From NCBI RefSeq assembly GCF_000425905.1, contig NZ_AUEI01000007.1, positions 1 through 64,000 on the forward strand: a DNA stretch of 64,000 nt, read 5' to 3'. The notes beneath the pieces are model-generated. The model saw only the letters and a program-made list of their open reading frames with translations, searched no databases and had not been told where the DNA came from. This DNA is from Lactobacillus psittaci DSM 15354 (GTDB lineage Bacteria; Bacillota; Bacilli; Lactobacillales; Lactobacillaceae). Of this stretch, positions 6,827 through 50,140 are shown piece by piece. Positions within the stretch are counted from its first letter, which is position 1. Each line of letters begins with the position of its first letter. Made by a program: the position numbers and the translations under genes.

Positions 6827-8209
6827 ATGCTTAAAATTTTCGAAAATACACTTAAGCAAGTGTTAAAAGCACATGTTAGACCAAATAAACCAGCTGTTGA
6901 ATTAGACCCTATGCAAAAGTATCACAAGGTAGGTGAATACGAAGTAGGAGCAGATGACCATACACCTGGTAATGAAAAGTATATATTAACCGTTTATCAA
7001 AATGATAAGGGTATACTTTACCAAGCTTTAAGCCCCCAAAAGACAGATCGGTTAGCTGCCACCTATATTCGTCGTTTTGATGAGCGGTTAGGTCGATTTA
7101 GAGCATTTCAAAATCGAAAAAACGGCATGCGCTATCGGGTACTTGAATATCTTGATCAATTTATGAAGCAGGTTAAAGAGCAGATTCGAAGCGGAAACAA
7201 TTCAATCAATATCGGTGTTTTAACTGATACTCACTATAAGGATACTGATTCAGTTGATTTTTATGGGCATAATGGTTTAATTCATGTTCGTGAATTTAGT
7301 TATCTAGAAAATTTCGGCCTATTACATTTAAAAGCTCATTTAGGAGATTGGATTGATGGGTCTGATCCAGGACTTATTAGTGAAAGTGAGTTGATTAAAT
7401 TACGTAATAGTTTTAAATCAGCAAGAACTCCTTTTGCTATGATTAAGGGAAATCATGATGAAAATGATAAGTTTGATGAACATCATGATTTGAAGGCCAG
7501 CTTTCCTGAAGATGAGTTTGAAAAAATAATGTGGCCAACCATGTATAATCAAGCTGCATTACGCTATGTATCTCGTTATCATGGAGTTGCATATTTTGAT
7601 AAAGATGACTTAAGGGTGATTTTTCTTAATACGTCTGATGTTCCCTATATAATTGATGAAAATGGAAAGAAAAAATATGATACCAAGTTAACCTTGGCGA
7701 TTAGAGAAGACCAAGTTGAAGAACTGATTGAAATACTTGAAGGGTCATCTGGTAAAAGAATCATCATTATGAGTCACGGCAATCCAATTAATCGTAAGGG
7801 TGGGAATGCCATGAAGTATAATGGTAGATCTTTACACGAATTACTTGTAGCCTTTAATCAAAACCAAAAAGGGCGAATGCATTCACATAATGTGCCACCA
7901 GAGTTTACTTTAAGTAACGACTTTGACTTTACTAATGTTGAAAATGCTAAAGTTATTGCATACTTTTGTGGGCATCGACATGTAGAAGATCAATTTAGAA
8001 TTAACGGTATACAGTATATCTTTTTCAATTGTTCCGCCTTAATGGGGCCTAATCATGTTTTAACGACTAAATACAATAAGAACTGGAATCGGCAAATCGA
8101 TGATATAACTGAATTTGCTGGTTATGTAGTTAATGTGGATTTGGTAAAAGGAAAGATTCAAATCTTTGGCTATGGTGCAGCCAGTTCTAAGCGAGTTTAT
8201 GATATTTAG
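6827..8209 (+). CDS. Metallophosphoesterase (calcineurin-like)
   Basis: A 460-residue enzyme with all five metal-binding blocks of the calcineurin-like phosphoesterase fold: DTHY at 134-137, GDWIDGSD at 173-180, GNHD at 208-211, then MSHGNP and GHRHVED near residues 313 and 381. These bind two metal ions and hydrolyse phosphomono- or diesters. There is no signal peptide, so it is probably cytoplasmic. The first 125 residues are an extra domain that I do not recognise. Start ATG 6827 follows AAGGGGG. Its position after a phosphonate/phosphate-ester transporter hints at phosphate-ester use, but this is only context. Confidence 0.87.
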   Translation: MLKIFENTLKQVLKAHVRPNKPAVELDPMQKYHKVGEYEVGADDHTPGNEKYILTVYQNDKGILYQALSPQKTDRLAATYIRRFDERLGRFRAFQNRKNGMRYRVLEYLDQFMKQVKEQIRSGNNSINIGVLTDTHYKDTDSVDFYGHNGLIHVREFSYLENFGLLHLKAHLGDWIDGSDPGLISESELIKLRNSFKSARTPFAMIKGNHDENDKFDEHHDLKASFPEDEFEKIMWPTMYNQAALRYVSRYHGVAYFDKDDLRVIFLNTSDVPYIIDENGKKKYDTKLTLAIREDQVEELIEILEGSSGKRIIIMSHGNPINRKGGNAMKYNGRSLHELLVAFNQNQKGRMHSHNVPPEFTLSNDFDFTNVENAKVIAYFCGHRHVEDQFRINGIQYIFFNCSALMGPNHVLTTKYNKNWNRQIDDITEFAGYVVNVDLVKGKIQIFGYGAASSKRVYDI

Positions 8210-21607: not shown

Positions 21608-24151
21608 ATGAAGAAAAAGATTCTATGGAAAGATGCTTGGCAAGCAATAACTGGATCTTTAGGTAGATTTGTTGCAATTTTCATGTTAATGATGGTGGCC
21701 GTCTTTACCTTTATAGGGCTTAAAATGACGGGGCCAGATATGAGAAGCACAGCTGTTGATTCATTTAAGAATAATAATTTAGCTGATATAACAGTTGTTT
21801 CAAATTATGGCTTAAATAGTAAAGATAAACAAAAAATCGAAAATCAATCTGGTGTAAAGAAGATTGAATATAGTTATCTTCAAGATTCTACTGTTAATGA
21901 TAGTAAAAAGAGTTTAAGGGTATATTCTGAAAGTAAGAAGATATCTAAAGTGGAACTTACTAAGGGTCATATGCCTAAAAATAACTCTGAAATTGTTATC
22001 TCCTATTTGTTGAAAGATAAGTATAAACTTGGTAAAAAGATAACTTTAGACAATCACAGTAGTTTAAAGCATAAAAAGTTTAAAGTTGTAGGTTATGTTC
22101 GCTCAAGTGAGTATTTAGATAAACACGATATGGGGCAAACCACTGTAGGTACAGGTCAATTATCTGGCTTTGCTTTTGTAAAGAAGTCTGCCTTTAAATC
22201 TGGTACAACAACTGGAATAGCTAGAATTACTTATAAAAAGACTGCTAAAATGAATCCATATTCAACTAAGTATTCTAACTATATTAATGACAAGGAAAAA
22301 GATTTAAAGAAGGAATTAGATAAGAATATTTCAGCTAAAGAAAATAAAACCAAAAATAAAATTGCTGAAATTAATGATAGTTTAACTAAGTTAAATGCAA
22401 TTGTAGCGGTTAAACCTGAATATCAGAGCCAGATTAAGCAACTTGAAAGTGCTAAAGCGAAGCTTGAACATTTGAATAAACCTAGCTACACAGTTAATAC
22501 TCGTGATGAATTCCCAGGTTATGAAAATTATCGTTCAAATGCGGAAAGAATTGACGTTTTATCTAATATCTTCCCAGTATTCTTATTTGCGATTTCTGCC
22601 TTAGTTTCTTTAACTACAATGACTAGATTTGTGGAAGAAGAAAGAATTAATATTGGTACTATGAAGGCGATTGGTTATAGCAATTTTGATGTAGCTAAGA
22701 AATTTATCGTTTATAGTATGCTTTCAAGTACATTGGGTGTTATTTTGGGTGCATTTGGTGGATTTAGAATCTTACCTGGCATTATCTTTGAAGCCTATGC
22801 AGCAAATTCAACTATGACTGGTTTTAGAAGCCAATTTTCTTTAGCTTGGCTAATATTGGGATTAGTTGTTGCATGGGCATGTACGACTTTAGCAGCACTT
22901 TACGCCTTAAAGAAAGATGTTAAAGACCGTCCAGCTCAATTATTACTACCTAAACCACCTAAAAAAGGCTCAAAAATTTTCCTTGAAAGAATCACACCAT
23001 TATGGAGTAGATTAAGCTTTAACCATAAGGTTACCTTCAGAAACCTCTTTAGATATAAGACAAGAATGTTAATGACAATCTTTGGGGTTGCTGGTTGTAC
23101 AGGATTATTAGTAATGGCTTTTGGTATTCGAGATTCACTTTCAGGAATTAGTAAGAATCAATATACCAACATTATCAAATATGACATGATTGCGGTTAAA
23201 AACTCAAATCCTAGTTCTAAACAAACCTCAGACTTATTGGATGAACTAGATTCAAATAGTGTTAAGCGCTATAAGCAGATTCACTTTACTACTTTGAATC
23301 GTAATCTTGGGGAAGACAAGACTAAGCAAACTATTAATGTGATTGTTCCTAAGGCTAATACTGACTTATCTAAGTATATTAATTTAATGAGCAGTTCTAC
23401 TGGAAAGAAATTAAAATTAACTAATAACGGTGTAATTATTTCTGAAAAGTTGGCTCAATTAACCAATGCTAAGGTTGGACATTATATTAAGTTAAAAGAT
23501 ACTAACGATAAGTGGAAAAAATTCAAAGTTAGTGGCATTTGTGAAATGTATATGGGTCACTACATGGTAATGAATAACCAAGCTTATAAGCATTACTTTG
23601 ATAAAGAATATAAGACTAATGGTTATTTGATAACTACTAAGTCAGGTAAATTACAAACAGTTTCTGAAAAACTGATGGCTACTGGCGCAATTAAAGGTAT
23701 TAATCAAAATGTTAACAATAAGAAAACAATTGATAACTTGATTAATTCACTTAATAAAGTTATTTTGATTTTGATTGCGATTTCTACAATTTTGGCATTG
23801 GTTGTTATCTATAATTTAACTAATATTAATGTTGACGAAAGAATGCGTGAACTTTCAACTATTAAAGTATTGGGATTCTTTGATAAAGAAGTTACGATGT
23901 ACATTTATCGGGAAACAATTATTCTTTCAATTCTAGGTATCTTAGCTGGATATTTAGTCGGTATTTGGTTACATAGCTTTATTATTACCACCTTACCACC
24001 CGTTAATGCTATGTTTGATCCTAATATGTACATATCTAACTTTATTTACTCAGCCCTCATTCCAGCAGTAATCACTACTGTCTTAGCATTTATTATGCAC
24101 AAGAAGATTAAAGACGTTGATATGCTAGATGCTTTAAAGTCAGTTGAATAG
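21608..24151 (+). CDS. ABC transporter permease with two FtsX domains
   Basis: An 847-residue membrane protein. One N-terminal segment (about 17-37) precedes a large extracellular domain rich in Lys and Ser, then comes a first FtsX domain (about 320-430) with ERINIGTMKAIGY; a second extracellular domain follows the segment near 490, and the last FtsX domain (about 740-847) carries DERMRELSTIKVLG. This two-FtsX layout is typical of Gram-positive permeases for antimicrobial peptide resistance or lipoprotein handling. Its substrate is not known. The promoter of a candidate small RNA lies inside its last codons. Confidence 0.9.
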   Translation: MKKKILWKDAWQAITGSLGRFVAIFMLMMVAVFTFIGLKMTGPDMRSTAVDSFKNNNLADITVVSNYGLNSKDKQKIENQSGVKKIEYSYLQDSTVNDSKKSLRVYSESKKISKVELTKGHMPKNNSEIVISYLLKDKYKLGKKITLDNHSSLKHKKFKVVGYVRSSEYLDKHDMGQTTVGTGQLSGFAFVKKSAFKSGTTTGIARITYKKTAKMNPYSTKYSNYINDKEKDLKKELDKNISAKENKTKNKIAEINDSLTKLNAIVAVKPEYQSQIKQLESAKAKLEHLNKPSYTVNTRDEFPGYENYRSNAERIDVLSNIFPVFLFAISALVSLTTMTRFVEEERINIGTMKAIGYSNFDVAKKFIVYSMLSSTLGVILGAFGGFRILPGIIFEAYAANSTMTGFRSQFSLAWLILGLVVAWACTTLAALYALKKDVKDRPAQLLLPKPPKKGSKIFLERITPLWSRLSFNHKVTFRNLFRYKTRMLMTIFGVAGCTGLLVMAFGIRDSLSGISKNQYTNIIKYDMIAVKNSNPSSKQTSDLLDELDSNSVKRYKQIHFTTLNRNLGEDKTKQTINVIVPKANTDLSKYINLMSSSTGKKLKLTNNGVIISEKLAQLTNAKVGHYIKLKDTNDKWKKFKVSGICEMYMGHYMVMNNQAYKHYFDKEYKTNGYLITTKSGKLQTVSEKLMATGAIKGINQNVNNKKTIDNLINSLNKVILILIAISTILALVVIYNLTNINVDERMRELSTIKVLGFFDKEVTMYIYRETIILSILGILAGYLVGIWLHSFIITTLPPVNAMFDPNMYISNFIYSALIPAVITTVLAFIMHKKIKDVDMLDALKSVE

Positions 24152-24167: not shown

Positions 24168-24333
24168 CGACGAGTCGATAAAGAACGCGAGATGCGTATA
24201 TTTATCAGGGGACATCTGCTTTTAATAGCAAGGCACGGGAAGTGCTGATGTTTTGGAAGACCTATTGTGAACGTGGAATTCCAACTTTGCCCAGTTAAGA
24301 CCACTTCTTTCCATGAGAAGTGGTCTTTTTTTC
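24168..24333 (+). ncRNA. Candidate structured small RNA between the ABC permease gene and gpmA
   Basis: About 165 bases without a credible ORF, framed by a promoter (TATAAT at 24156) and a strong terminator. By eye it folds into: a hairpin closed by GATAAA (24177) and TTTATC with an inner CGC/GCG; a three-way junction closed by ACATC/GATGT that holds two small hairpins (TGC...GCA and GCAC-GGGA-GTGC); a stem TTGGAA/TTCCAA; and the terminator. I do not recognise it as SRP, 6S, tmRNA or RNase P RNA. It could be a free small RNA or a premature-termination leader of gpmA, though gpmA seems to have room for its own promoter. Confidence 0.5.
24297..24333 (+). terminator. Terminator of the candidate small RNA
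   Basis: AAGACCACTTCT and AGAAGTGGTCTT form a perfect 12-bp stem with a seven-base loop, followed by TTTTT. Confidence 0.92.
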
Positions 24334-24411: not shown

Positions 24412-25104
24412 ATGTCAAAATTAGTTTTAATCCGTCACGGTCAAAGTGAATGGAACCTTTCAAACCAATTTACTGGTTGGGTAGATGTAAACCTTTCAGA
24501 TAAAGGTGTTGAAGAAGCTAAAAAAGCTGGTCGTTTAATTAAGGAACACGGCTTGAAGTTTGATCAAGCTTACACTTCAGTATTGAAGCGTGCTATCAAG
24601 ACTTTGCACTTTGCACTTGAAGAAAGTGACCAACTTTGGATTCCTGAAACTAAGACTTGGAGACTTAACGAACGTCACTACGGTGCTCTTCAAGGCTTAA
24701 ACAAGAAGGCTACTGCTGAAAAGTACGGCGATGAACAAGTTCACATTTGGCGTCGTTCATACGATGTTTTGCCACCAGCAATTGATGATAACAACGAATA
24801 CAGTCAAGCACATGACCGTCGTTACTCAAACTTAGACCCTAACATCGTTCCAAAGGCAGAAAACTTACATGTATGTTTAGACCGTGTAATGCCATTCTGG
24901 GAAGATCACATTGCTCCTGACTTATTAGCAGGTAAGAATGTTATTATTGCGGCTCACGGTAACTCACTTCGTGCTTTAACTAAGTACATTGAACGTATTT
25001 CTGATGAAGACATTATGGACGTTGAAATGAAGACTGGTGAACCAGTTGTTTACACTTTTGACGATAAGTTGAACGTAACTGACAAGGTTAAGTTAGACGA
25101 TTAA
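24412..25104 (+). CDS. gpmA: 2,3-bisphosphoglycerate-dependent phosphoglycerate mutase
   Basis: A 230-residue glycolytic enzyme that interconverts 3- and 2-phosphoglycerate. The RHGQSEWN motif (residues 8-15) provides the phospho-accepting His9; [20 protein letters not shown] and the second His in [10 protein letters not shown] are all present. ATG 24412 follows AAAGGAG. The codon use is strongly biased (CAC, GGT, AAG), as expected for a highly expressed gene. Own terminator at 25123. Confidence 0.97.
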
Positions 25105-25122
25105 TTACATAATAGTAGCACA

Positions 25123-25152
25123 AAAAAGGCATCCATAATGGATGCCTTTTTC
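25123..25152 (+). terminator. Terminator after gpmA
   Basis: AAAAAGGCATCC pairs with GGATGCCTTTTT around ATAAT. Confidence 0.92.
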
Positions 25153-25340
25153 GTATCAACTTGTTCCAAAAATAAATAAAAAAGTTCGGAACTCTTTTAT
25201 TATAATAATTAGTGAAATATTTATCAAGTTGGTAAAGTTTTTTACAATTTAGTTATGAAAAGCCATTTTTCGTGCGTTTAATTGTTTTTTTAGATAAAAT
25301 AATTGCAATAGTAAACTATTTATAAAAAAGGAAAGAATAT

Positions 25341-27153: not shown

Positions 27154-27213
27154 TAATCTTATCTAGTATTTATACCTTCTTTTGATAAAATATTAGTCAG
27201 GAAGGATTTAATG

Positions 27214-28293
27214 ATGAAAATAGAAAAGAAAAGAATTGCTTACTTAGATGTTTTACGTATTCTATCCATGTTTTTTATTGTTCTAATTCATGTATCTGGA
27301 TCAATGGCATGGTATAACACGATTCCTAAATCAAGAAGTTGGCAATTTTTGAATTTATTAGATGGAATTAGTCGTTTTAGTGTGCCTATCTTTCTGATGA
27401 TTTCGGGATGTATTTTCTTAAATTTGAAGCGAGAAATAACACACAGCCAACTTTTGCATAAGAATATCAAAAGAATTGCAATTGCTTTTTTTACTTGGAG
27501 TTTGGTATATGCACTCTATGAGTATTGGGCTATTCCAGGTATAGCTAAGTCAGTAGTAATTGGAATGTTTTTTGCCGGACATTATCATATGTGGTTTTTA
27601 CCATGTATCGTAGGGATGTATCTCATTACCCCTTTATTGAGAATGTGGGCTAAAGATGAACGTAAGTTACGTTATTTTTTAATCTTAACGATTATCTTTG
27701 CGATTTTGATTCCGTCTGTACTAGATTTTTTCAAAGCTTTTAAGAATATTTTACCTGTGGCCATTTGGAATATAATGAAGAAAGTACAGACAACATACTT
27801 ACGATCAACTTTCGAATTTCCTTTAGGTTTAACTGTATATTTTGTTTTAGGATATTACTTAGATCAATATCAGTTAGATAAAACAAAGCGGATATGTTTA
27901 TATTCTGTAGCTCTTATAGTTAATATTCTAACTTCACTAGCTAGTGGTTGGTTAAGTTTTCATTTTAACAAGCCAATGGTATTTAACTATTCATATACTT
28001 CAATTAACAATTTTTTATTTGCAATCGCAATTTTTGTTTTTATCAAGCAAGTTTTAAAGAATAAATACATAAGTAATCATAATTTACTGGTCAAATGGTC
28101 CAATTTAATGTTTGCAGTTTACTTAGTCCATGTTTTGTTTGTCCATATTCTAATAGAAAGAGCCCATGTTAATATATTATGGCCTAATGGCTTAATTGGT
28201 CCAATCTTAGTTTCGATTATAATTTTTATTTTATCGAATATTGTGGCATTTATTTTAAGTAAAATACCGCTTGTTAACAAATATTGTATGTAA
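27214..28293 (+). CDS. Acyltransferase family 3 membrane protein
   Basis: A 359-residue integral membrane protein with about ten hydrophobic segments. RIAYLDVLRILSMFFIVLIHVSG at the N-terminus is the conserved start of acyltransferase-3 (OafA/WecH-like) proteins, with the catalytic His of the LIHVSG motif. It lacks the extracellular SGNH domain of OatA. These enzymes O-acetylate surface polysaccharides or other envelope glycans; the target here is unknown. Two ATGs are adjacent (27211 and 27214); the second has better spacing from GGAAGGA. Confidence 0.85.
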   Translation: MKIEKKRIAYLDVLRILSMFFIVLIHVSGSMAWYNTIPKSRSWQFLNLLDGISRFSVPIFLMISGCIFLNLKREITHSQLLHKNIKRIAIAFFTWSLVYALYEYWAIPGIAKSVVIGMFFAGHYHMWFLPCIVGMYLITPLLRMWAKDERKLRYFLILTIIFAILIPSVLDFFKAFKNILPVAIWNIMKKVQTTYLRSTFEFPLGLTVYFVLGYYLDQYQLDKTKRICLYSVALIVNILTSLASGWLSFHFNKPMVFNYSYTSINNFLFAIAIFVFIKQVLKNKYISNHNLLVKWSNLMFAVYLVHVLFVHILIERAHVNILWPNGLIGPILVSIIIFILSNIVAFILSKIPLVNKYCM

Positions 28294-28339: not shown

Positions 28340-28344
28340 ATTGA

Positions 28345-28556
28345 TAACACGAAAAAAGATAGTAGTCCCTTAATTCAGTGTTCAGAGAACTAGCGTTGTG
28401 GTGAGAGCTAGACAGGTTAAGAAGCGACGAAGTACAGTGTACGGGGCGTAATTCCTCGTTAGCAACTATAAAGGCGCGCATAGCGCAAACGTGGGTGGTA
28501 CCACGGCTATCTAATGATTATTAGTCGTCCCTTGATTTAATCAAGGGACGTTTTTT
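28345..28556 (+). promoter_or_regulatory. Tyrosine T-box riboswitch
   Basis: A T-box leader that senses uncharged tRNA-Tyr and controls tyrS by antitermination. The AGAGA and GGTG motifs of Stem I are near 28384 and 28400, the likely specifier codon TAC is at 28433-28435, and the T-box sequence TGGGTGGTACCACGG is at 28492-28506. It ends in a strong terminator (CGTCCCTTGAT with ATCAAGGGACG, 28526-28550, then TTTTTT) that competes with the antiterminator. Confidence 0.95.
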
Positions 28557-28573
28557 ATTTGATGGAGGAAATT

Positions 28574-29836
28574 ATGGCAAAGTTTGATATCTTAGAAGAC
28601 CTTAAATGGCGTGGCGCCATTAATCAACAAACTGATGAGGAAGGTTTAAAGAAGTACTTAGCTGAACATGATGATTTGGCACTTTACTGCGGTACTGACC
28701 CAACAGGAGACTCACTTCATATTGGACACTTGATTCCATTTATGATTTTGAAGAGATTCCAACTTGCTGGTTATCATCCGGTAATTATTATTGGTGGAGG
28801 TACTGGTTCAATTGGTGACCCATCAGGTAGAAAGACTGAACGTGTCCTTCAAAGCGATGAACAAGTGCACCATAATGAAGTTGCTTTAACTAACCAAATG
28901 AAAAAGTTATTTGGTACTGAAAACTTCCAAATCGTTAATAACCGTGACTGGCTTGGTAAGATGAGCTTACTTGAATTTTTACGTGATTACGGTAAATTGT
29001 TCCAAATTAATAACATGCTTGCTAAGGATGTAGTTGCTAGTCGTCTTGAAAATGGTATTAGCTTTACTGAATTTACTTACCAAATTTTACAAGGTATCGA
29101 CTTCTACATCTTAAACCGTGACTATGGTGTACAAATGCAAATTGGTGGTAGTGATCAATGGGGTAACATTACCTCAGGTATCGACTTAATTCACCGTTTA
29201 GAAGGTAATGACCGTCCAGCCTTTGGTTTGACTATTCCATTGATGCTTAAGGCTGATGGTACTAAGTTTGGTAAGTCTGCTGGTGGAGCTGTTTGGCTTG
29301 ATCCTGAAAAGACTAGTCCTTACGAATTTTACCAATTCTGGATTAATCAAGATGACCGTGATGTTGTTAAATACCTCAAGTACTTTACTTTCTTAAGTCA
29401 TGAAGAAATTGAAGCTTTAGCTGAAAAGGTTAAGACTGAACCTTGGAAGCGTGAAGCTCAAAAGACTTTAGCCGCTGAAGTTACTAAGTTTGTTCATGGT
29501 GAAGCAGGACTTAAGGAAGCTCAAATGATTACTGATGCTTTATTCTCAGGTAATGTGAAGGAATTATCAGTTAAGCAAATTGAACAAGCACTTAAGAATG
29601 CACCAAGTGCAGAAAGTACCACTGAAAAGAAGAACTTGGTAGAATTTTTAGTAGATACTAAGATTGAATCTTCAAAGCGCCAAGCACGTGAAGATGTTCA
29701 AAATGGGGCAATCTATGTCAATGGTGACAAAATCCAAGACCTAGAATTTGAAGTTGATCCAAGTGCTTCATTTGAAGGTAAGTACGTAATTATCCGTAAG
29801 GGTAAGAGAAAATACACTTTAGTTACTATTAAGTAA
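28574..29836 (+). CDS. tyrS: Tyrosyl-tRNA synthetase
   Basis: A 420-residue class I synthetase. HIGH is at residues 49-52, the KMSKS-type loop is KFGKS at 231-235, and an S4 RNA-binding domain closes the C-terminus (about 350-420). ATG 28574 has GGAGG upstream; an in-frame start at 28559 lies in the terminator and is not used. It is controlled by the upstream T-box. No ordinary plus-strand terminator follows; the tRNA-Thr gene comes only 32 bases later. Confidence 0.97.
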   Translation: MAKFDILEDLKWRGAINQQTDEEGLKKYLAEHDDLALYCGTDPTGDSLHIGHLIPFMILKRFQLAGYHPVIIIGGGTGSIGDPSGRKTERVLQSDEQVHHNEVALTNQMKKLFGTENFQIVNNRDWLGKMSLLEFLRDYGKLFQINNMLAKDVVASRLENGISFTEFTYQILQGIDFYILNRDYGVQMQIGGSDQWGNITSGIDLIHRLEGNDRPAFGLTIPLMLKADGTKFGKSAGGAVWLDPEKTSPYEFYQFWINQDDRDVVKYLKYFTFLSHEEIEALAEKVKTEPWKREAQKTLAAEVTKFVHGEAGLKEAQMITDALFSGNVKELSVKQIEQALKNAPSAESTTEKKNLVEFLVDTKIESSKRQAREDVQNGAIYVNGDKIQDLEFEVDPSASFEGKYVIIRKGKRKYTLVTIK

Positions 29837-29868: not shown

Positions 29869-29941
29869 GCCGTTTTAGCTCAGGAGGTAGAGCACCGCCG
29901 TGGTAAGGAGGAGGTCGCCAGTTCAAATCTGGCAAACGGCT
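29869..29941 (+). tRNA. tRNA-Thr (anticodon GGT)
   Basis: A 73-base cloverleaf: acceptor GCCGTTT/AAACGGC, D-stem GCTC/GAGC, T-arm GCCAG-TTCAAAT-CTGGC, anticodon GGT at 29902-29904. The anticodon stem CCGCC/GGAGG has a G-A mismatch in the middle pair and a G instead of a pyrimidine at position 32, which is unusual. CCA is not encoded. It has no obvious promoter and is probably made from the tyrS transcript. Its last base overlaps the stop codon of the opposing gene. Confidence 0.9.
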
Positions 29942-32565
29942 TATTGTTTTTTCTTAAAATAGATTATCTCAAACACGAAGATAATTAATCCGATAAGTGT
30001 AATTAGAAGCCCTAATTTCAGTCCTGGCATCGTATGAGTAAATTCAACATTGTGAGTGCCAGGAGATAGTTTCAGAGCCATAAAAATACCGAAGGACTTA
30101 CTGATAGGAACTATTTTGCCATCAACTTTAGCTTTCCAGCCCCAAGAATATGGAATAGTAGTTACTAAACTTTGTCCTTTTTTAATTGTGACTGTGCCAT
30201 CAATTTTGTTACCCCTTAAAGTAGTAAGTTGCATCTTATTTTGATTAGCTTTTTTGATTACTTTTTGCAAATTTTGTTCGTTTAAAAGATATAAATTAGG
30301 ATTCATTAGCTTAAATTGAGTGATGCTAGGTTTAAAGTAAATCTTTAAAGAGACTGTGCCAGATTTTGGAACTGTAACCCCTATTGGCTGATTAGCAAAT
30401 TGCATTGAAGTGAAATTTTGTCCATTGAGTGTAAGCTTATCTACACTACCATCACGATTGATTAATTTCATTAAGTTTTGATCAAGCATGATATATCCAG
30501 TTGAATTAGGTTTTGCTTGGTAAGTTGCAGTCAAGATTATGGCTTTACTGTCTTTGCGGGAAAGATAGCTATAATCAGAATCTGATTTTATGCTTGCAGT
30601 TTTAGCAGTTAACTTAGCTTTAATCGCTTTTCCAAAGTAGGTGTAGTTTGAGCCAGTGAGTGCATTAATAGCAAGTGTTTGGTTTAGTAAAGCACCATAT
30701 CTACCTCTTAATATAGTATTTGTAGGTAGTTGTCCAGAAAAAGCAAGTGGAAAGACTTTAGAAGAGTATGCTGTATGATATTTATCTTGATAGATGATAG
30801 TTTTATTTTTTAAATCATTTCGTAAGCCATAATTTCCATACTGAGCGATGGAATCAGTAGGTAATGTAGAGACAAGATAAGTTTTAATACCAAATAAAGC
30901 ATCAGTTACTTGGGTACCAGTATTATAGAAATAGAAGTAGTATAAGCCTTGTAATCCAAGTTGTGAATATAAAATACTTACATTTGAATTATTGTTTGAA
31001 GAAAAAACAGTAGCACCACGATAGTTGAAGGTATATGCTTCACCACGATCTTGGTCTAATACAAAACTCTTTTCCAAGCGTTCATCTTTAGCTGATGCAG
31101 GTAAAGCATTAATTAATTTTTGAGTAGATTTAGTATAGGAACTATAGTTAGCTGGTGCTGGTTTAGTAGTTGTTATTACTACAGCTCCTTTGTTTGTAGC
31201 AAAGAGATAACTAGCATTGGCAAATAATTCTAAAATAATTAGACTAGATAAGATAAGAGGTCGAATCTTTTTTAGTGAATAAAGAGTATAGGTTAGGATA
31301 ACAATGATTAAAACAACCAAACTAGCAATTAACTCTTCAAAATTAAAGCTAACACCCCAGCGCTTGTAAAGGCTAATTCTACTGTAGCTACCAACAATAA
31401 ATAAAAGTGCAGTCAGTGTTGAACAGATAATAACTTGCTTTTTATTAAGAGTGTTCTTTTTAAGTTGCAAGCAGGCAATATAAACGATGATAAAGTTAAT
31501 TAAAAAAGCAAAACGATAAGGATATGAATTTGGGGCTTGGCCTGCATGCCAGATAAAGTAAAGTTTAGTTGTTAAAAGTCCTGAGCAAGTGAATAATAAA
31601 ATTAAAAAAGTGGCAATTCGGTTTTTAAGGCTAAACTTTTTATTAAAGAAATAAAGGATAGCAAGAATTAGAGTTAAACTTCCGGTATAAATAAGTGGAA
31701 TATAGACATTAAAGGCCCCCTGGAAAAATAAGTTAGCAGGAATATCTAACCATAATTGGAGATGGCTAATAGGCGAATAATATGATTGGACTGAAAGTTT
31801 ATTTTCAATTAGATTCAAGAAAGTAGGGATTTCAATAAATGCTGTTAATAAAGCTGCTGTGATTGAACTAAGAGCAAAAATAAATGTTTGCTTGAAAAAT
31901 AACTTCCAAGTTGAAAAGTTAAGATAAGCTTGATATAAAAAGTAACCTATTAAAAATAAGCAAACCATGTAAGCAGTATAGTAATTGGCAATAATTAGTA
32001 CTGCTAGGGATGCTACATATAAAATAGAAAACTTACCATGGCAGATTTTGGTTAATCCGATAAGTACCAATGGAAGCAATGCGATAGAATCTAGCCACAT
32101 GATGTTACCTGAATAACAAATAACATAACTAGATAAGGCATAACACAAGGACATAGCTACCATTAGCTCTTGTTTAATTGGATTTAACTTATTAAGCATG
32201 TAGGTAAAAGCACCTGCAGCTAGCATTACTTTAGTGACAATAATTGTATATAAAGCTAAGGTCATTTCATTTGCAGGGAAAAGTAGAGCAATAAGATTAA
32301 ATGGGCTTGTTAAATAATAGCCCCAATTGCCGGCAGTATTACCACCTAGGCCATTAGAAAAGCTATAGGAAAAGTCACTAAATCCTCCAAAGACTACATG
32401 GCGAAAATATTGGAAAAATGATAAATACTGAGTCATCAAATCCCCAGAAATAATCATGCCACCAGTGAATGGGTTAGTACCACCAATCCAACTGGCAATA
32501 AAGAAGATTATACCTGCTAAAAGTGCAGAAACAATCCAAAGATGTTTTTTAAAAAAAGTTATCAT
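29941..32565 (-). CDS. YfhO family membrane protein (first copy)
   Basis: An 874-residue protein with about 12-13 membrane segments in its first 460 residues (starting near residue 7), a long extracellular part (about 470-850), and a final membrane segment ending KKKQ. Family members in Bacillus and Listeria act as flippase-like or glycosyltransferase-type proteins in lipoteichoic acid glycosylation; that role is a guess here. GGMIISGDLMTQYLSFFQYFRHVVFGG and FSNGLGGNTAGNWGYYLTSPFN are conserved with the second copy at 35925-38504. The stop codon overlaps the tRNA-Thr gene end on the other strand. Confidence 0.85.
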   Translation of the reverse strand: MITFFKKHLWIVSALLAGIIFFIASWIGGTNPFTGGMIISGDLMTQYLSFFQYFRHVVFGGFSDFSYSFSNGLGGNTAGNWGYYLTSPFNLIALLFPANEMTLALYTIIVTKVMLAAGAFTYMLNKLNPIKQELMVAMSLCYALSSYVICYSGNIMWLDSIALLPLVLIGLTKICHGKFSILYVASLAVLIIANYYTAYMVCLFLIGYFLYQAYLNFSTWKLFFKQTFIFALSSITAALLTAFIEIPTFLNLIENKLSVQSYYSPISHLQLWLDIPANLFFQGAFNVYIPLIYTGSLTLILAILYFFNKKFSLKNRIATFLILLFTCSGLLTTKLYFIWHAGQAPNSYPYRFAFLINFIIVYIACLQLKKNTLNKKQVIICSTLTALLFIVGSYSRISLYKRWGVSFNFEELIASLVVLIIVILTYTLYSLKKIRPLILSSLIILELFANASYLFATNKGAVVITTTKPAPANYSSYTKSTQKLINALPASAKDERLEKSFVLDQDRGEAYTFNYRGATVFSSNNNSNVSILYSQLGLQGLYYFYFYNTGTQVTDALFGIKTYLVSTLPTDSIAQYGNYGLRNDLKNKTIIYQDKYHTAYSSKVFPLAFSGQLPTNTILRGRYGALLNQTLAINALTGSNYTYFGKAIKAKLTAKTASIKSDSDYSYLSRKDSKAIILTATYQAKPNSTGYIMLDQNLMKLINRDGSVDKLTLNGQNFTSMQFANQPIGVTVPKSGTVSLKIYFKPSITQFKLMNPNLYLLNEQNLQKVIKKANQNKMQLTTLRGNKIDGTVTIKKGQSLVTTIPYSWGWKAKVDGKIVPISKSFGIFMALKLSPGTHNVEFTHTMPGLKLGLLITLIGLIIFVFEIIYFKKKQ

Positions 32566-40733: not shown

Positions 40734-41234
40734 ATGAAATTAACAAAGAAGACTTTGTTATCTGCTGCAGCTATTCTATTAGTTGCTAGCGGTTTAACTG
40801 CTTGCTCTAATAACAAGAGTGCAAGTTCGAATTCAGTAGCTACTAGTTCTAAAACAGTGAAAAAACACAAAGTGCACAAGCACAAGACTAGTGATGATAC
40901 TGAAAGTTCAACTTCAAGCAGTGAAACCAGTTCAAGCAGCTCTAGTTCAGTTGCAAGCTCTGCTACAAATTCAGGTTCAAACAATACCTCTGCTACTGGT
41001 AAAGTTAGCGATAGCACTTTTAAAGCTATTGCCAATCACTGGTTGAAGGTTGCTAATAAGCCTGCAAGTTATAGCAGTCATGTGCGTGTAAGCTACTCTG
41101 GTGAAACTAGTCGAGGCAAAGAATTTTTAGTCACAACTACTGATTCAGATGGTATTGAAGCACATTATTACTTGAATAGTAATGGTTTATACTACTACGA
41201 TGTACTTAACGATAAACTTGTAGAGGTTAATTAA
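40734..41234 (+). CDS. Small Ser-rich lipoprotein (paralogue A)
   Basis: A 166-residue surface lipoprotein. Signal peptide 1-24 has the lipobox LTAC. A low-complexity Ser/Thr/Lys linker (about 27-90) leads to a folded C-terminal domain (about 95-166) ending HYYLNSNGLYYYDVLNDKLVEVN. The next gene has the same plan and a related end, so the two are paralogues. I do not know the function. A TATAAT at 40675-40680 and a TGCACC/GGTGCA hairpin at 40686-40704 lie in the leader. GGAGG precedes the ATG. Confidence 0.82.
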   Translation: MKLTKKTLLSAAAILLVASGLTACSNNKSASSNSVATSSKTVKKHKVHKHKTSDDTESSTSSSETSSSSSSSVASSATNSGSNNTSATGKVSDSTFKAIANHWLKVANKPASYSSHVRVSYSGETSRGKEFLVTTTDSDGIEAHYYLNSNGLYYYDVLNDKLVEVN

Positions 41235-41257
41235 GTTACTATTGGAGGATTTTCATC

Positions 41258-41794
41258 ATGAAGTTTAGGAATAAGTTTCTTATTTCAGCTGCTACCTTAG
41301 TGTTAGTAGCTGGCATAGCCAGCGGATGCTCAAGTAAGACAAAGAGCAACACTCAGTCTGCTACCTCTTCTAGGGTAAGACATAAAAAGAGTGTTAAGAA
41401 GCACAAGAGGGCGAAGAAGTTAGAAACTACTGCTTCTGCTTCATCTACCAGTGAAGTGGATTCAAACAGCAGCCAAACTTCTACTTCCGCTTCCCACGTG
41501 CGGAATACATATACTACTAATTCAGCTCAAAATAATCAGGCCAGTGCTAGTCAAAATCAAAATATGAATTCTAGTGCAATTAGACAAGCTGGCCAAGATT
41601 GGAGTAAGCGCGGAGGGTATAAATCAGCTAGTCCAGATAGTTTTCTTTACTATTTTGGTAAAGATGGCAACAATACAATTATTCAGATAGCTGAAAAATC
41701 TAGTGGCCACGTTGTTGCCAATTACTATTTAACCCCATCTGGTGCTTTGTATTATGATAATATTTCTACCAATAATAGAGTAAGGGTTAATTAG
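41258..41794 (+). CDS. Small Ser-rich lipoprotein (paralogue B)
   Basis: A 178-residue lipoprotein with signal peptide and lipobox IASGC (Cys24), a Ser/Thr/Asn-rich linker, and a C-terminal domain ending NYYLTPSGALYYDNISTNNRVRVN, similar to paralogue A. GGAGG is nine bases upstream of ATG 41258. The stop codon is directly followed by the ATG of a GreA paralogue, so all three genes seem to form an operon. Function unknown. Confidence 0.82.
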   Translation: MKFRNKFLISAATLVLVAGIASGCSSKTKSNTQSATSSRVRHKKSVKKHKRAKKLETTASASSTSEVDSNSSQTSTSASHVRNTYTTNSAQNNQASASQNQNMNSSAIRQAGQDWSKRGGYKSASPDSFLYYFGKDGNNTIIQIAEKSSGHVVANYYLTPSGALYYDNISTNNRVRVN

Positions 41795-45401: not shown

Positions 45402-45487
45402 AAATTAATGAGTATCAACGGCTAAGGTATCATAAAAATTTTTAAATAAATAATAGAATTTGAGATAATATGAATGAGGTGAAAAAT

Positions 45488-46639
45488 ATGAAATTTGTTA
45501 TTGCACCAGATTCATATAAGAATTGTTTGTCTGCTTTTGAAGTGGCTAAAGCAATTCATGCTGGAATTAATCAGATTTTTCCAAAAGCAGAGTATGAAGT
45601 AGTACCGATGGCAGATGGCGGAGAAGGAACCACCACTGCCTTGGTTGAAGCGCGAGAAGGAAAATATGAAAAAGTCTTAGTTCATAATCCATTTAACCAA
45701 TTAGTCGAGGTACAATATGGTTTTATTGATAAGCAGATAGCCGTAATTGAAGTTGCGGCAGCAAGTGGCATCCAGTATAGAGATGCACAGCATAATTCGC
45801 CCCTACTAGCTTCTAGTTATGGTACTGGTGAAATAATCTTAGATGCCCTTAAAAAGGGTGCCAAAAAAATAGTGCTAGGATTAGGTGGTAGTGCGACAGT
45901 TGATGGCGCTAGTGGAATCTTACAAGCTATTGGTGCTAAGTTTCTTGATAAAAACGATTCTGAATTACAATTAGGACCAGCAAATTTAAAGGAATTAGCT
46001 AAAATCGATTTTAGTGAAGTTGATCCTAAGATTTTAAAAGTTCCAATTTTATTAGCAAGTGATGTAACCAATCCATTATTAGGTGAAGAAGGTGCAGCTA
46101 AAGTTTTTGCCCCACAAAAGGGAGCAGATGCTGTTATGGTTGAACAATTAGAAGATAATTTAAGCCAGTTTGCTAAAATTGCTTGTAACTATACTGGGAA
46201 GGATTATATTAATACACCTGGTGCAGGGGCAGCAGGTGGTATTGGTTTTGGGCTTTTAACTTTTTTGAATGCGAAAATTGAACCCGGCGTTAAGTTAATT
46301 GCTAAATTATCGCAATTAGCAGAAAAATGCCAACATGCAGATTATATATTTACTGGTGAAGGTAGAACTGATTTTCAAACTAAATTTGGTAAGACTCCAT
46401 ATGGAGTAGCTCAAGTTGCTAAAAAAGTGTCACCTAATGCCAAGGTAATAATTGTCTCTGGTAGTATTAGCGAAGATGCGGATGAACTGTGTCAGAATGG
46501 AATTATTGATGCTTTGTTTACAGCACCTGTTGGAGCTAAAAGCTTAGATCAAGCTATTAAGGGCGCAAAAAGTGATATAACTTATACTAGTAAAGAAATT
46601 GCCCGCTTGTTAAAAGTAAATACCTCTTTAAAAAATTAA
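45488..46639 (+). CDS. glxK: Glycerate kinase
   Basis: A 383-residue cytoplasmic enzyme that phosphorylates glycerate with ATP. The GlxK/GarK family start MKFVIAPDSYKNCLSAFEVAKAI and the GLGGSATVDGASGILQAIGAKF and GAGAAGGIGFGL motifs are present. ATG 45488 follows GAGGTGA; an in-frame ATG at 45470 has no ribosome site. Divergent from the broken OFA transporter, which may have imported its substrate or a precursor; this pairing is an inference. Confidence 0.93.
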   Translation: MKFVIAPDSYKNCLSAFEVAKAIHAGINQIFPKAEYEVVPMADGGEGTTTALVEAREGKYEKVLVHNPFNQLVEVQYGFIDKQIAVIEVAAASGIQYRDAQHNSPLLASSYGTGEIILDALKKGAKKIVLGLGGSATVDGASGILQAIGAKFLDKNDSELQLGPANLKELAKIDFSEVDPKILKVPILLASDVTNPLLGEEGAAKVFAPQKGADAVMVEQLEDNLSQFAKIACNYTGKDYINTPGAGAAGGIGFGLLTFLNAKIEPGVKLIAKLSQLAEKCQHADYIFTGEGRTDFQTKFGKTPYGVAQVAKKVSPNAKVIIVSGSISEDADELCQNGIIDALFTAPVGAKSLDQAIKGAKSDITYTSKEIARLLKVNTSLKN

Positions 46640-46671
46640 ATATAGATTAGGTAAATAATTACTAATTTTAT

Positions 46672-46701
46672 TTGATTAATTATACAAAAACTTGCTATAC
46701 T
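46672..46701 (+). promoter_or_regulatory. Promoter of second candidate small RNA
   Basis: TTGATT (46672-46677) and TATACT (46696-46701) are 18 bases apart, with TG one base before the -10. A transcript would begin near 46708 in a region without genes. Confidence 0.55.
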
Positions 46702-46707
46702 TATCTT

Positions 46708-46931
46708 GACCAGTGCTATGAAATGCGCTGGCTTTGCACTACATTTCTCAAATAGCCTAAGGGCTATATCTTCATGATGGAATCTTCTATTAGAGTAGGA
46801 GATTGTTATCCTCTTTCAATATCAGTAGTTTTGAGAGCTACTGGTTATCTTCAAAAACATTTTTGTTTTTTTATTCATTTTTTACAAATCTCAATTTTTA
46901 AGAAGTCCACGTTACTGTGGGCTTCTTTTTT
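46708..46931 (+). ncRNA. Candidate structured small RNA between glycerate kinase and glycerol facilitator genes
   Basis: This gene-free stretch of 334 bases has a promoter, several stable hairpins and a strong terminator. By eye: CCAGTGC/GCGCTGG near 46710-46731, ATAGCC/GGGCTAT near 46754-46770, AATCTTCTA/TAGGAGATT near 46782-46805, CAGTAG/CTACTG near 46823-46843, then a weak AT-rich hairpin with T-run at 46852-46872 and the strong terminator at 46900. The 19-codon ORF inside has no ribosome site. I do not recognise the RNA family. The downstream gene is on the other strand, so this is not a leader of a neighbouring gene. Confidence 0.5.
46900..46931 (+). terminator. Terminator of the second candidate small RNA
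   Basis: AAGAAGTCCAC pairs with GTGGGCTTCTT (11 pairs with one wobble), loop GTTACT, then TTTTTT. Confidence 0.88.
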
Positions 46932-46932
46932 G

Positions 46933-46960
46933 CAAAAAAAAGAAGGCGAGTAGCCTTCTA
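46933..46960 (-). terminator. Terminator of the glycerol facilitator gene
   Basis: AGAAGGC and GCCTTCT pair around GAGTA; on the minus strand a long T-run follows. Confidence 0.88.
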
Positions 46961-46973
46961 AAAAAGTATTTGC

Positions 46974-47702
46974 TTATTTAATAATAGTATTTAAGCCACA
47001 AGCGATAAATGCGCCTAAAAGTGGACCAAACATTGGTACCCAAGCATATTCCCAGTGAGCACTTGACTTGTTTGGAATTGGTAAAATAGTGTATGCAAAT
47101 CTAGGAGCCCAATCACGAGCAGGGTTAATTGCGAATCCAGTTGTTTCACCAAATGATTGACCAATAACCATGATTAATAAACCAAGAATAAGTGGCTTTA
47201 GGCCAGTAGTAAAGTTACCTAAGTGACCTAAAATGAAAACAAAAATAGTAGTAGCGATAACCTCACTTAAAAAGTTGAAAAGTGGGTGACTGATTGCAGG
47301 ACCAGTAGTAAAAATACCTACGTGGTTACCTTCTTCTTCAGTTTTGGTTGCTTTGAAGTGTGGGTAGTAGTGAATAGCAATGATTGCAGCCCCAACAAAA
47401 GCACCTAAGAATTGAGCAATTAAATAACTAGGAACTTGGTTCCAAGTAAAGCCATCAACATGGAAAAAGGCGAAACTCAAGGTAACTGCAGGATTTAAGT
47501 GGCCTTTTGAGCCCAAAGAGCCAGCAACGTAAACTGCAAAAGTAATTGCCAATCCCCAAGTCATAGTAATGAAGTGCCAATTTGTTCCTTTAGCAGCAGA
47601 GTGCTTTAAGTTGCTCGCAGCACCGATACCAATACCGAGTACTAATAAAATCATGGTTCCGAAGAATTCACCGATGAATCCATTCGCAATTAAGTTGTGC
47701 AT
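46974..47702 (-). CDS. glpF: Glycerol uptake facilitator (aquaporin family)
   Basis: A 242-residue channel with six membrane segments and the two half-helices: HLNPAVT (NPA at 70-72) and INPARDW (NPA at 193-195). Asp197 after the second NPA is the mark of glycerol-conducting GlpF channels. Glycerol, and possibly dihydroxyacetone, water or lactic acid, passes. ATG 47702 follows GGGGATA. The gene is single, with an inverted repeat in its leader and a terminator behind. Confidence 0.93.
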   Translation of the reverse strand: MHNLIANGFIGEFFGTMILLVLGIGIGAASNLKHSAAKGTNWHFITMTWGLAITFAVYVAGSLGSKGHLNPAVTLSFAFFHVDGFTWNQVPSYLIAQFLGAFVGAAIIAIHYYPHFKATKTEEEGNHVGIFTTGPAISHPLFNFLSEVIATTIFVFILGHLGNFTTGLKPLILGLLIMVIGQSFGETTGFAINPARDWAPRFAYTILPIPNKSSAHWEYAWVPMFGPLLGAFIACGLNTIIK

Positions 47703-47741
47703 AAAATATCCCCTTTAGATATAAAATAAGTAGATGAAACT

Positions 47742-47789
47742 GCAATATGACGGTAAACTTCAATTAAAAGTAAAGGTTTCTCATATTGC
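47742..47789 (-). promoter_or_regulatory. Inverted repeat in the glpF leader
   Basis: GCAATATGA (47742-47750) and TCATATTGC (47781-47789) are perfect inverted repeats, and AAACTT/AGGTTT can pair inside. It lies 40-90 bases before the glpF start, as an RNA hairpin or an operator. Confidence 0.45.
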
Positions 47790-47867
47790 GCCGTGCATAA
47801 GTATATCAGCTTGTTATTTAAAAAGCTAGCAAAATTTTTACTGTGTCAAATAATATGCTCGCAAAAT

Positions 47868-49276: not shown

Positions 49277-50140
49277 ATGACAATTGGCGACTTACTAAAA
49301 GAATATCGAATTGAGCAAGGTAAATATCAGAAAGAATTTACAAATGATGGACAAATAGTCAGTCAATCCTTTTACTCTAAAGTAGAGAAGAACATTAATA
49401 GAATTACCGCTGATAGCTTATTAGAATTACTACACTACAATAAAATTTCCTTGTGGGAATTTTTTAGTAGATTGAATCAAAGCGACGACTTCATGCACCA
49501 ACAAGTTGAGAGTTTTCACAAAATAATGGTAGAAGCATATTATGCTAATGATAAAGCGAAGGTTAAACAGTTAAAACCATTAATTAAAGAAAGCTACTTA
49601 TCAGATAAAGGAAAAGAAGAAGAGCTATTACTTGTTGAAGCTGTATTAGAAGTGATGAAAGATCCTACAGAGGAGCCGGATTTAGAATTAAGGAATAAAA
49701 TTAAAGAAAAAATTTTTAATATTCCTAGCTTTAATCAAACTAAGATGGAATTGTTCTGTAATTTCATGTATTTTTATGACTTTGAAAGTAATAAAGTTAT
49801 AGCTCAAAGGATAATTAAACAACATATTGCGACAAACGATATCAAATTACAGAAGCCACTATTAGGAATAATAGTTAATATGCTAGCTCTTTCATTTGAT
49901 GCTGGAAAAGAAAAAACTGAAACTGAATTCTTTATAGAAAGTGCTAAAAAAATAAAAATGCATCCAGAATTAACATTTTATAAACTAGCATTATTATTTT
50001 TTACCAATCTAATTAGTTATCGTAAAACAGGAGAGCCAAAATACTATCAACAAAGCAGTGATATGGCGGATACAATGCTTTTAGTTGGATTAACTGGATA
50101 TGGAAAAATACTACATGATTTGTTAGTTAAGTATAAATAA
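49277..50140 (+). CDS. Rgg/GadR/MutR family transcriptional regulator
   Basis: A 287-residue regulator. Residues 1-60 are a Cro/C1-type helix-turn-helix (MTIGDLLKEYRIEQGKYQKEFTNDGQIVSQSFYSKVEKN); the remaining part is an all-helical, TPR-like region with many aromatic and Lys residues, as in the Rgg family, which often binds short secreted peptides. ATG 49277 is preceded by GGAGGAGG. It lies between the divergent MFS gene and an untracked 49-codon membrane peptide gene, so it is a candidate for a peptide-sensing locus. Confidence 0.85.
   Translation: MTIGDLLKEYRIEQGKYQKEFTNDGQIVSQSFYSKVEKNINRITADSLLELLHYNKISLWEFFSRLNQSDDFMHQQVESFHKIMVEAYYANDKAKVKQLKPLIKESYLSDKGKEEELLLVEAVLEVMKDPTEEPDLELRNKIKEKIFNIPSFNQTKMELFCNFMYFYDFESNKVIAQRIIKQHIATNDIKLQKPLLGIIVNMLALSFDAGKEKTETEFFIESAKKIKMHPELTFYKLALLFFTNLISYRKTGEPKYYQQSSDMADTMLLVGLTGYGKILHDLLVKYK

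Follow-up and report, generated by a model that had tools for sequence, protein, structure and literature searches.

The gap between the glycerate kinase gene and a glpF-like gene of Lactobacillus psittaci DSM 15354 raises the question of whether its 334 gene-free bases (46640-46973 of the 64,000-nucleotide stretch analysed here, the window) encode a small RNA in its own right, the tail of the upstream message, or nothing that functions. A preliminary description of this DNA had pointed to a gene-free stretch of this length and had argued that its candidate RNA is no leader of the next gene; both points stand, glpF being on the opposite strand. The source genome comprises 1.54 Mb in 23 contigs and is 99.86% complete. 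Our tentative answer, held at somewhat under an even chance, is a separate small RNA gene that is species-restricted and acts by base pairing, its target being left open, and the narrower proposition that the candidate is made as a separate transcript we regard as evenly balanced. A species-restricted small RNA is a plausible description of the candidate, and one that is ordinary in kind. The features that bear on the question are the following.

45470-46639, plus strand: glycerate kinase gene (Pfam PF02595, E 3.3e-132)
46643-46680, plus strand: weak hairpin that follows the stop codon of glycerate kinase and overlaps the -35 hexamer (-5.4 kcal/mol)
46672-46701, plus strand: promoter-like site TTGATT-18-TATACT with an extended -10 (TG), a consensus match only
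46708-46931, plus strand: predicted RNA of ~224 nt, from folding and a start inferred from the -10 hexamer
46710-46731, plus strand: hairpin H1, 7 pairs (-11.4 kcal/mol, 0 of 200 shuffles as stable)
46752-46767, plus strand: hairpin H2, 6 pairs (-8.1 kcal/mol, 1 of 200 shuffles as stable)
46776-46810, plus strand: hairpin H3 (-11.2 kcal/mol, 1 of 200 shuffles as stable)
46808-46821, plus strand: mostly unpaired C+U-rich linker joining H3 to H4, with duplex energies that prefer Shine-Dalgarno regions
46821-46845, plus strand: hairpin H4, 11 pairs (-10.7 kcal/mol, 0 of 200 shuffles as stable)
46853-46870, plus strand: A+U hairpin followed by a T run, a weak terminator at best (-3.6 kcal/mol, 7 of 200 shuffles)
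46871-46899, minus strand: probable 29-nt relic, in which the 5' UTR and the 3' flank of an NlpC/P60 gene are joined (exact match)
46883-46899, plus strand: 17 nt complementary to the NlpC/P60 5' UTR at -37 to -21 (perfect match)
46900-46931, plus strand: intrinsic terminator of the plus-strand transcript, with T run (-14.7 to -15.7 kcal/mol, 0 of 200 shuffles)
46941-46959, minus strand: glpF-side terminator (terminator scan)
46974-47702, minus strand: glpF-like glycerol channel gene of the MIP family (Pfam PF00230, E 3e-36)

The structural part of the preliminary description was borne out: its four hairpins were each recovered at their places when folded one by one, and the terminator that it called strong folds strongly. 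The candidate stretch folds well above its shuffles, with a z of -6.1 for 46708-46935 and of -4.4 for 46708-46873, where the terminator is left out (0 of 200 shuffles for each); the z of the opposite strand of 46640-46960 is -3.2. The folding of H1-H4 is unusual, not unique, in the 64 kb, since a z as low is found in 28 of 1194 segments of 146 bases taken from both strands, a comparison that used 20 shuffles each and that includes segments near the candidate itself. By eye, the H1 loop GAAAU could in addition pair with AUUUC at 46743-46747 to form five pairs, mostly A-U. The terminator scan reports the glpF-side terminator only; the plus-strand terminator is missed by the scan rule because part of its T run lies inside the stem. 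A length of 170 to 224 bases had been proposed for the RNA, of which the shorter figure depends on the A+U hairpin, a poor terminator, and ~224 nt is therefore the likelier.

The promoter fares less well. Its hexamers, TTGATT at 46672-46677 and TATACT at 46696-46701 preceded by TG, are present as described, but the epithet "good" is not borne out by a count of promoter-like sites, four in 1001 bases versus 3.5 expected, which is at the level of chance. A survey of the window for extended -10 sites (TG plus five of six -10 matches) yields 18, eight of them intergenic; five of the eight stand before a same-strand gene, and the candidate's site is among the other three. In the preferred reading RNA polymerase would start near 46708 from the TTGATT/TATACT site and transcription would stop at 46900-46931, to give a ~224-nt RNA with four hairpins and unpaired linkers, and the unpaired parts would then pair in trans with mRNAs near the ribosome-binding site. 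A separate small RNA is suggested because a promoter-like site, a structured body and a strong terminator follow on one strand and because gaps elsewhere in the window with a delayed terminator contain RNA elements; two pairing results described below, the 17-nt complement and the leaning of linkers 3 and 4 toward ribosome-binding sites, also speak for it. It is made less sure by the chance-level promoter count, by the failure to find a homologue in which conserved pairing might be seen and by target energies that are also at chance.

The chief competitor, possible if doubtful, is that the stretch forms the long structured 3' UTR with which the glycerate kinase mRNA ends, and from which processing might release a 3'-UTR-derived RNA. 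That mRNA would read past the weak hairpin and end at 46900-46931, the hairpins protecting its 3' end. The candidate lies on the same strand, no strong terminator occurs for 287 nt past the stop codon, the hairpin in between reaches only -5.4 kcal/mol and the promoter-like site is at chance level. The promoter motif, hairpins and terminator were correctly placed in the preliminary description; their strand also suits a 3' UTR. Against this, a 3' UTR of such length is rare in the window, four independent hairpins are unneeded for an mRNA end, and an extended -10 site stands at the right place.

The 3' ends in the window were surveyed with 55 genes hand-picked from its 60 ORFs, which gave 37 gene ends. 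At 28 of the 37 a hairpin terminator with an energy of at most -8 kcal/mol stands no more than 65 nt from the gene end, and glycerate kinase is among the nine without; its first strong terminator is the one 287 nt downstream, and the hairpins downstream of it that pass the rule have energies of -6.3, -6.9, -6.2 and -8.3 kcal/mol at 36, 125, 163 and 204 nt. Two of the other eight ends belong to an overlapping gene pair, gene 6827-8209 has no terminator in its 102-nt gap, gene 49277-50140 has a weak terminator only, and the terminator is delayed behind four genes (21608-24151, 27211-28293, 28559-29836 and 29941-32565). All four of these gaps contain an RNA element detected by Rfam: a COG3610-DE RNA (RF03066) at 24172-24284 on the plus strand (82.1 bits versus a cut-off of 73.5), between genes 21608-24151 and 24412-25104; a tRNA at 29869-29941 that is common to two of the gaps; and a T-box at 28344-28535 on the plus strand (60.5 bits, under the cut-off of 93, E 6e-13). 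This small and after-the-fact survey favours the presence of an RNA element in the glycerate kinase-glpF gap. The T-box leader precedes the tyrosyl-tRNA synthetase gene, 28559-29836.

A feature of a different sort is found toward the 3' end of the candidate. A gene for a secreted NlpC/P60 wall hydrolase (G000:C4:132614-133318, locus L107; 234 aa, NlpC/P60 domain E 8.1e-30) is located on the same contig 86 kb away, and the minus strand from 46899 to 46871 is a perfect copy of its 5' UTR and 3' flank joined at a shared GTA; deletion of C4:132591-133340, between two GTA triplets, yields the identical 29 bases. None of 2000 shuffles attains a junction of 29 nt (maximum 24), and among the intergenic strands of the contig (92 tested) the next best value is 22. 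Genome-wide BLAST of the predicted RNA returned 24 matches at E 10, itself included, in which the segment adjoining the 17-mer matches 23 to 45 nt past the hydrolase stop codon (E 0.025) and the 17-mer match itself has an E of 0.086. Gapped alignment of the gap with the NlpC/P60 flanks scores 31.85 versus a shuffle maximum of 29.20 (0 of 2000), and since the intergenic strand 25105-25340 reaches 28.35 with an A+T-rich gapped alignment, the relic claim rests on the exact 29-nt junction. Judged by this junction, 46871-46899 very probably originated as the relic of a duplicated hydrolase gene whose coding region was lost; a history in the opposite direction, or a short element common to both places, is a possible source of the identity. 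Neither half of the relic is present at the hydrolase orthologue of the nearest genome (G022), the 17-mer was not seen by eye in the printed 5' ends of 29 other genus loci, and in a string search of the retrieved loci AATTGAGATTTGTA and GTAAAAAATGAATAA occur solely in source-genome loci. The relic adds to the earlier interpretation of the RNA gene something that is not visible from the window alone, and it appears to be the part most worth following, its origin being interesting and unproven.

By length of perfect match the best partner of the putative RNA would be the hydrolase mRNA (C4:132614-133318), with 17 nt. The pairing would end three bases before a GAGAGG Shine-Dalgarno-like stretch and could hinder 30S loading, and the site would be within the 5' UTR if, as we infer, the transcript of the hydrolase begins directly downstream of TATTAT at 132522. 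With up to two mismatches allowed, the 17-mer has no location in the whole genome other than the candidate and the hydrolase 5' UTR, and a reversed control has none. Of 3000 shuffled RNAs, 3 match some start region of the contig over 17 nt; among 3654 stretches of real sequence 6 do so, in three events, when the candidate's own two are set aside. The 17-nt segment is within the longest unpaired stretch of the predicted fold, 46871-46899, and its opening cost is low (1.2 kcal/mol). Common DNA descent explains the 17-nt match well enough without function; from the complementarity, antisense control of the hydrolase would be possible, and that the RNA in fact pairs with and lowers the hydrolase mRNA we think unlikely.

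Target scans covered the start regions of one contig, 178 of 1543 kb. Pairing with the hydrolase 5' UTR has a net energy of -12.1 kcal/mol and ranks second of 149 start regions, and the top target, gene 41258-41794 at -12.7 kcal/mol, was rejected with an energy within the range of shuffles. By these accessibility-aware energies the best target of the candidate is outdone by that of 6 of 15 shuffled RNAs, and the energies therefore support no target. Two small adjoining lipoprotein-like genes (166 and 178 aa), neither of which matches a Pfam family, occupy 40734-41794 on the plus strand of the window. For the single-stranded parts, linker 3 (46808-46821) has a mean duplex energy of -7.66 over 154 start regions versus -5.22 over coding pieces (0 of 60 shuffles), linker 4 (46844-46854) has a preference for ribosome-binding sites that 3 of 60 shuffles equal, and the weak preference of linker 2 (46766-46776) is equalled by 8 of 60; the H1 loop, linker 1 and the A+U tail display no start-region preference (31, 38 and 45 of 60 shuffles). 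The preference of the linkers for Shine-Dalgarno regions is partly one of C+U composition and is a hint only.

The relic also bears on the reading in which there is no functional RNA and the gap is decayed DNA between converging genes, made up of gene remnants and the terminators of both neighbours. The 29-nt fusion of NlpC/P60 flanks is what such decay could leave, and the lack of a homologue in relatives is in keeping with it; we nevertheless consider this reading unlikely, in that decay does not build H1-H4, each matched by 0 to 1 of 200 shuffles, and the only repeat elsewhere in the genome of any piece of these hairpins, the A+T-rich part aside, is one 14-nt match.

In 75 genus genomes neither a DNA search nor a covariance model built on the single sequence found a convincing homologue, and DNA searches of 397 family genomes, of phages and of plasmids found none either. 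In the genus, at E 0.001, the DNA search matched five genomes, the own one included, and the four other matches are 23 to 49 bases long: that in L003 is within a long ORF, presumably DNA polymerase PolC, and that in L002 is an A+T-rich stretch between ORFs, so neither was retained, and those in L004 and L005 are short alignments. In the family 28 of the 397 genomes matched, the own one included; among the 30 matches listed one is the candidate itself, 26 fall in its A+T-rich 3' part (query 183-247) and three elsewhere. The covariance model, built from one sequence given twice, matched 13 of the 75 genus genomes at E 1, its own included and the others at E 0.007 to 0.49; three of the 12 others, examined in context, are antisense inside long ORFs and were discarded. 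A search with laxer filters at E 5 matched 15 of 39 relatives, the own genome included, none of them better, and one match (E 1.4) was obtained in 29 glycerate kinase loci of other species. The phage search and a 22-mer scan of IMG/VR gave no match, the plasmid search gave one in Borreliella (E 2e-3) on the A+T-rich promoter side, a 20-mer contig scan gave one Prevotella contig that is taken for chance, and peptide patterns for a close sister species had 31 matches in the contig collection, none a relative; the phage, plasmid, IMG/VR and contig searches may omit the window's own or very near records.

The neighbouring genes are widespread, with glycerate kinase relatives in 55 of the 75 genus genomes, the own one included (best other 54% identity), and glpF relatives in 70 of 75 (best other 80%). 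In the nearest genome the two are at separate places, with identities of only 54% and 80%, a divergence that puts the genus out of reach of a covariation test. A glpF-like gene is near glycerate kinase in one of the 29 loci of other species (L011), where it is 38% identical and differently arranged. That no homologue was found therefore argues only weakly against function. The glpF gene itself has an apparent leader of about 100 bases (47703-47810, minus strand), as does that of G022 (1380-1500 of L058), and the two leaders have some like words by eye. A search of the literature by titles and opening abstract lines found no paper on the glycerate kinase-glpF locus.

A further reading, which we think improbable, is that a small RNA arose from a defunct duplicate of the gene that it targets and that its 17-nt antisense seed restrains the surviving hydrolase. 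A duplicated hydrolase gene would first have entered the glycerate kinase-glpF gap on the other strand, its coding region would have been lost between two GTA triplets to leave the UTR junction, and a nearby promoter would read that junction from the opposite strand to produce the antisense seed. If true, this would be a caught-in-the-act case of a bacterial small RNA gaining its target, the complementarity having come all at once with a remnant of the target gene and not through accumulated mutations. If the separate small RNA is real, an orphan regulatory RNA would be added to a genus with few that are characterised; if there is only a 3' UTR and a gene relic, the locus is ordinary.

The preliminary description could not place the RNA in a known family, and an Rfam search agrees, with no family at cut-off in the gap. 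Permissive settings gave 17 matches up to E 10, all far under cut-off; the best by E is ar9 on the other strand (E 0.12), and the best by bits on the plus strand is csRNA (RF02379), which at 26.5 bits versus a cut-off of 57 (E 0.29) does not reach membership and whose match at 46646-46735 spans the promoter region and, of the hairpins, only H1. RF00013 (6S) has no match in the gap or in the whole source genome; a control in this search matched in 5 of 14 genomes, and the 6S gene of the species is therefore one that is not recognised. The candidate is similar to 6S RNA in length, near 200 nt, but 6S is a rod with a central bulge and the candidate four separate hairpins. In lactic acid bacteria 6S is usually between rarA and uspA, and one Lactobacillus group has a non-canonical 6S structure (PMC8414754); the candidate is between glycerate kinase and a MIP channel. 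Location, shape and the missing RF00013 match count against the candidate being 6S. Nor does it fit a type I toxin mRNA: the four plus-strand ORFs of at least 20 aa in the gap have no Pfam match at E 1, and the longest, 46774-46953 (59 aa), crosses the terminator and has its stop codon beyond it. That the candidate is a divergent form of some known RNA (6S, csRNA, a type I toxin-antitoxin RNA or a riboswitch left without its gene) is thus highly improbable, even with the 6S of the genome unaccounted for and a weak csRNA match in its favour.

Among demonstrated RNAs the nearest in arrangement is ArgX of Lactococcus lactis, an experimentally shown small RNA functionally tied to the argR gene before it (PMC6586332). 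ArgX and the candidate are alike as lactic acid bacterial RNA genes directly behind a same-strand protein gene; ArgX has its own promoter and acts on mRNAs, both of which are predictions for the candidate, and its demonstrated tie to the preceding gene sets ArgX apart. The sLLM2- and sLLM1042+ RNAs of Lactococcus cremoris affect wall physiology and are backed by expression data and phenotypes (PMC13109727); the candidate, a prediction from sequence, resembles them in its link to the wall, its longest match being to a wall hydrolase mRNA.

A protein search with the hydrolase listed 27 matching places in the 1.54-Mb source genome. Upstream of the hydrolase gene, at C4:132495-132511, is TGTAACAATTATGTAAC, which we take to fit a WalR box. 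The 178 kb contain four such WalR-like boxes, and many relatives of the hydrolase also have repeats of this sort in front of them.
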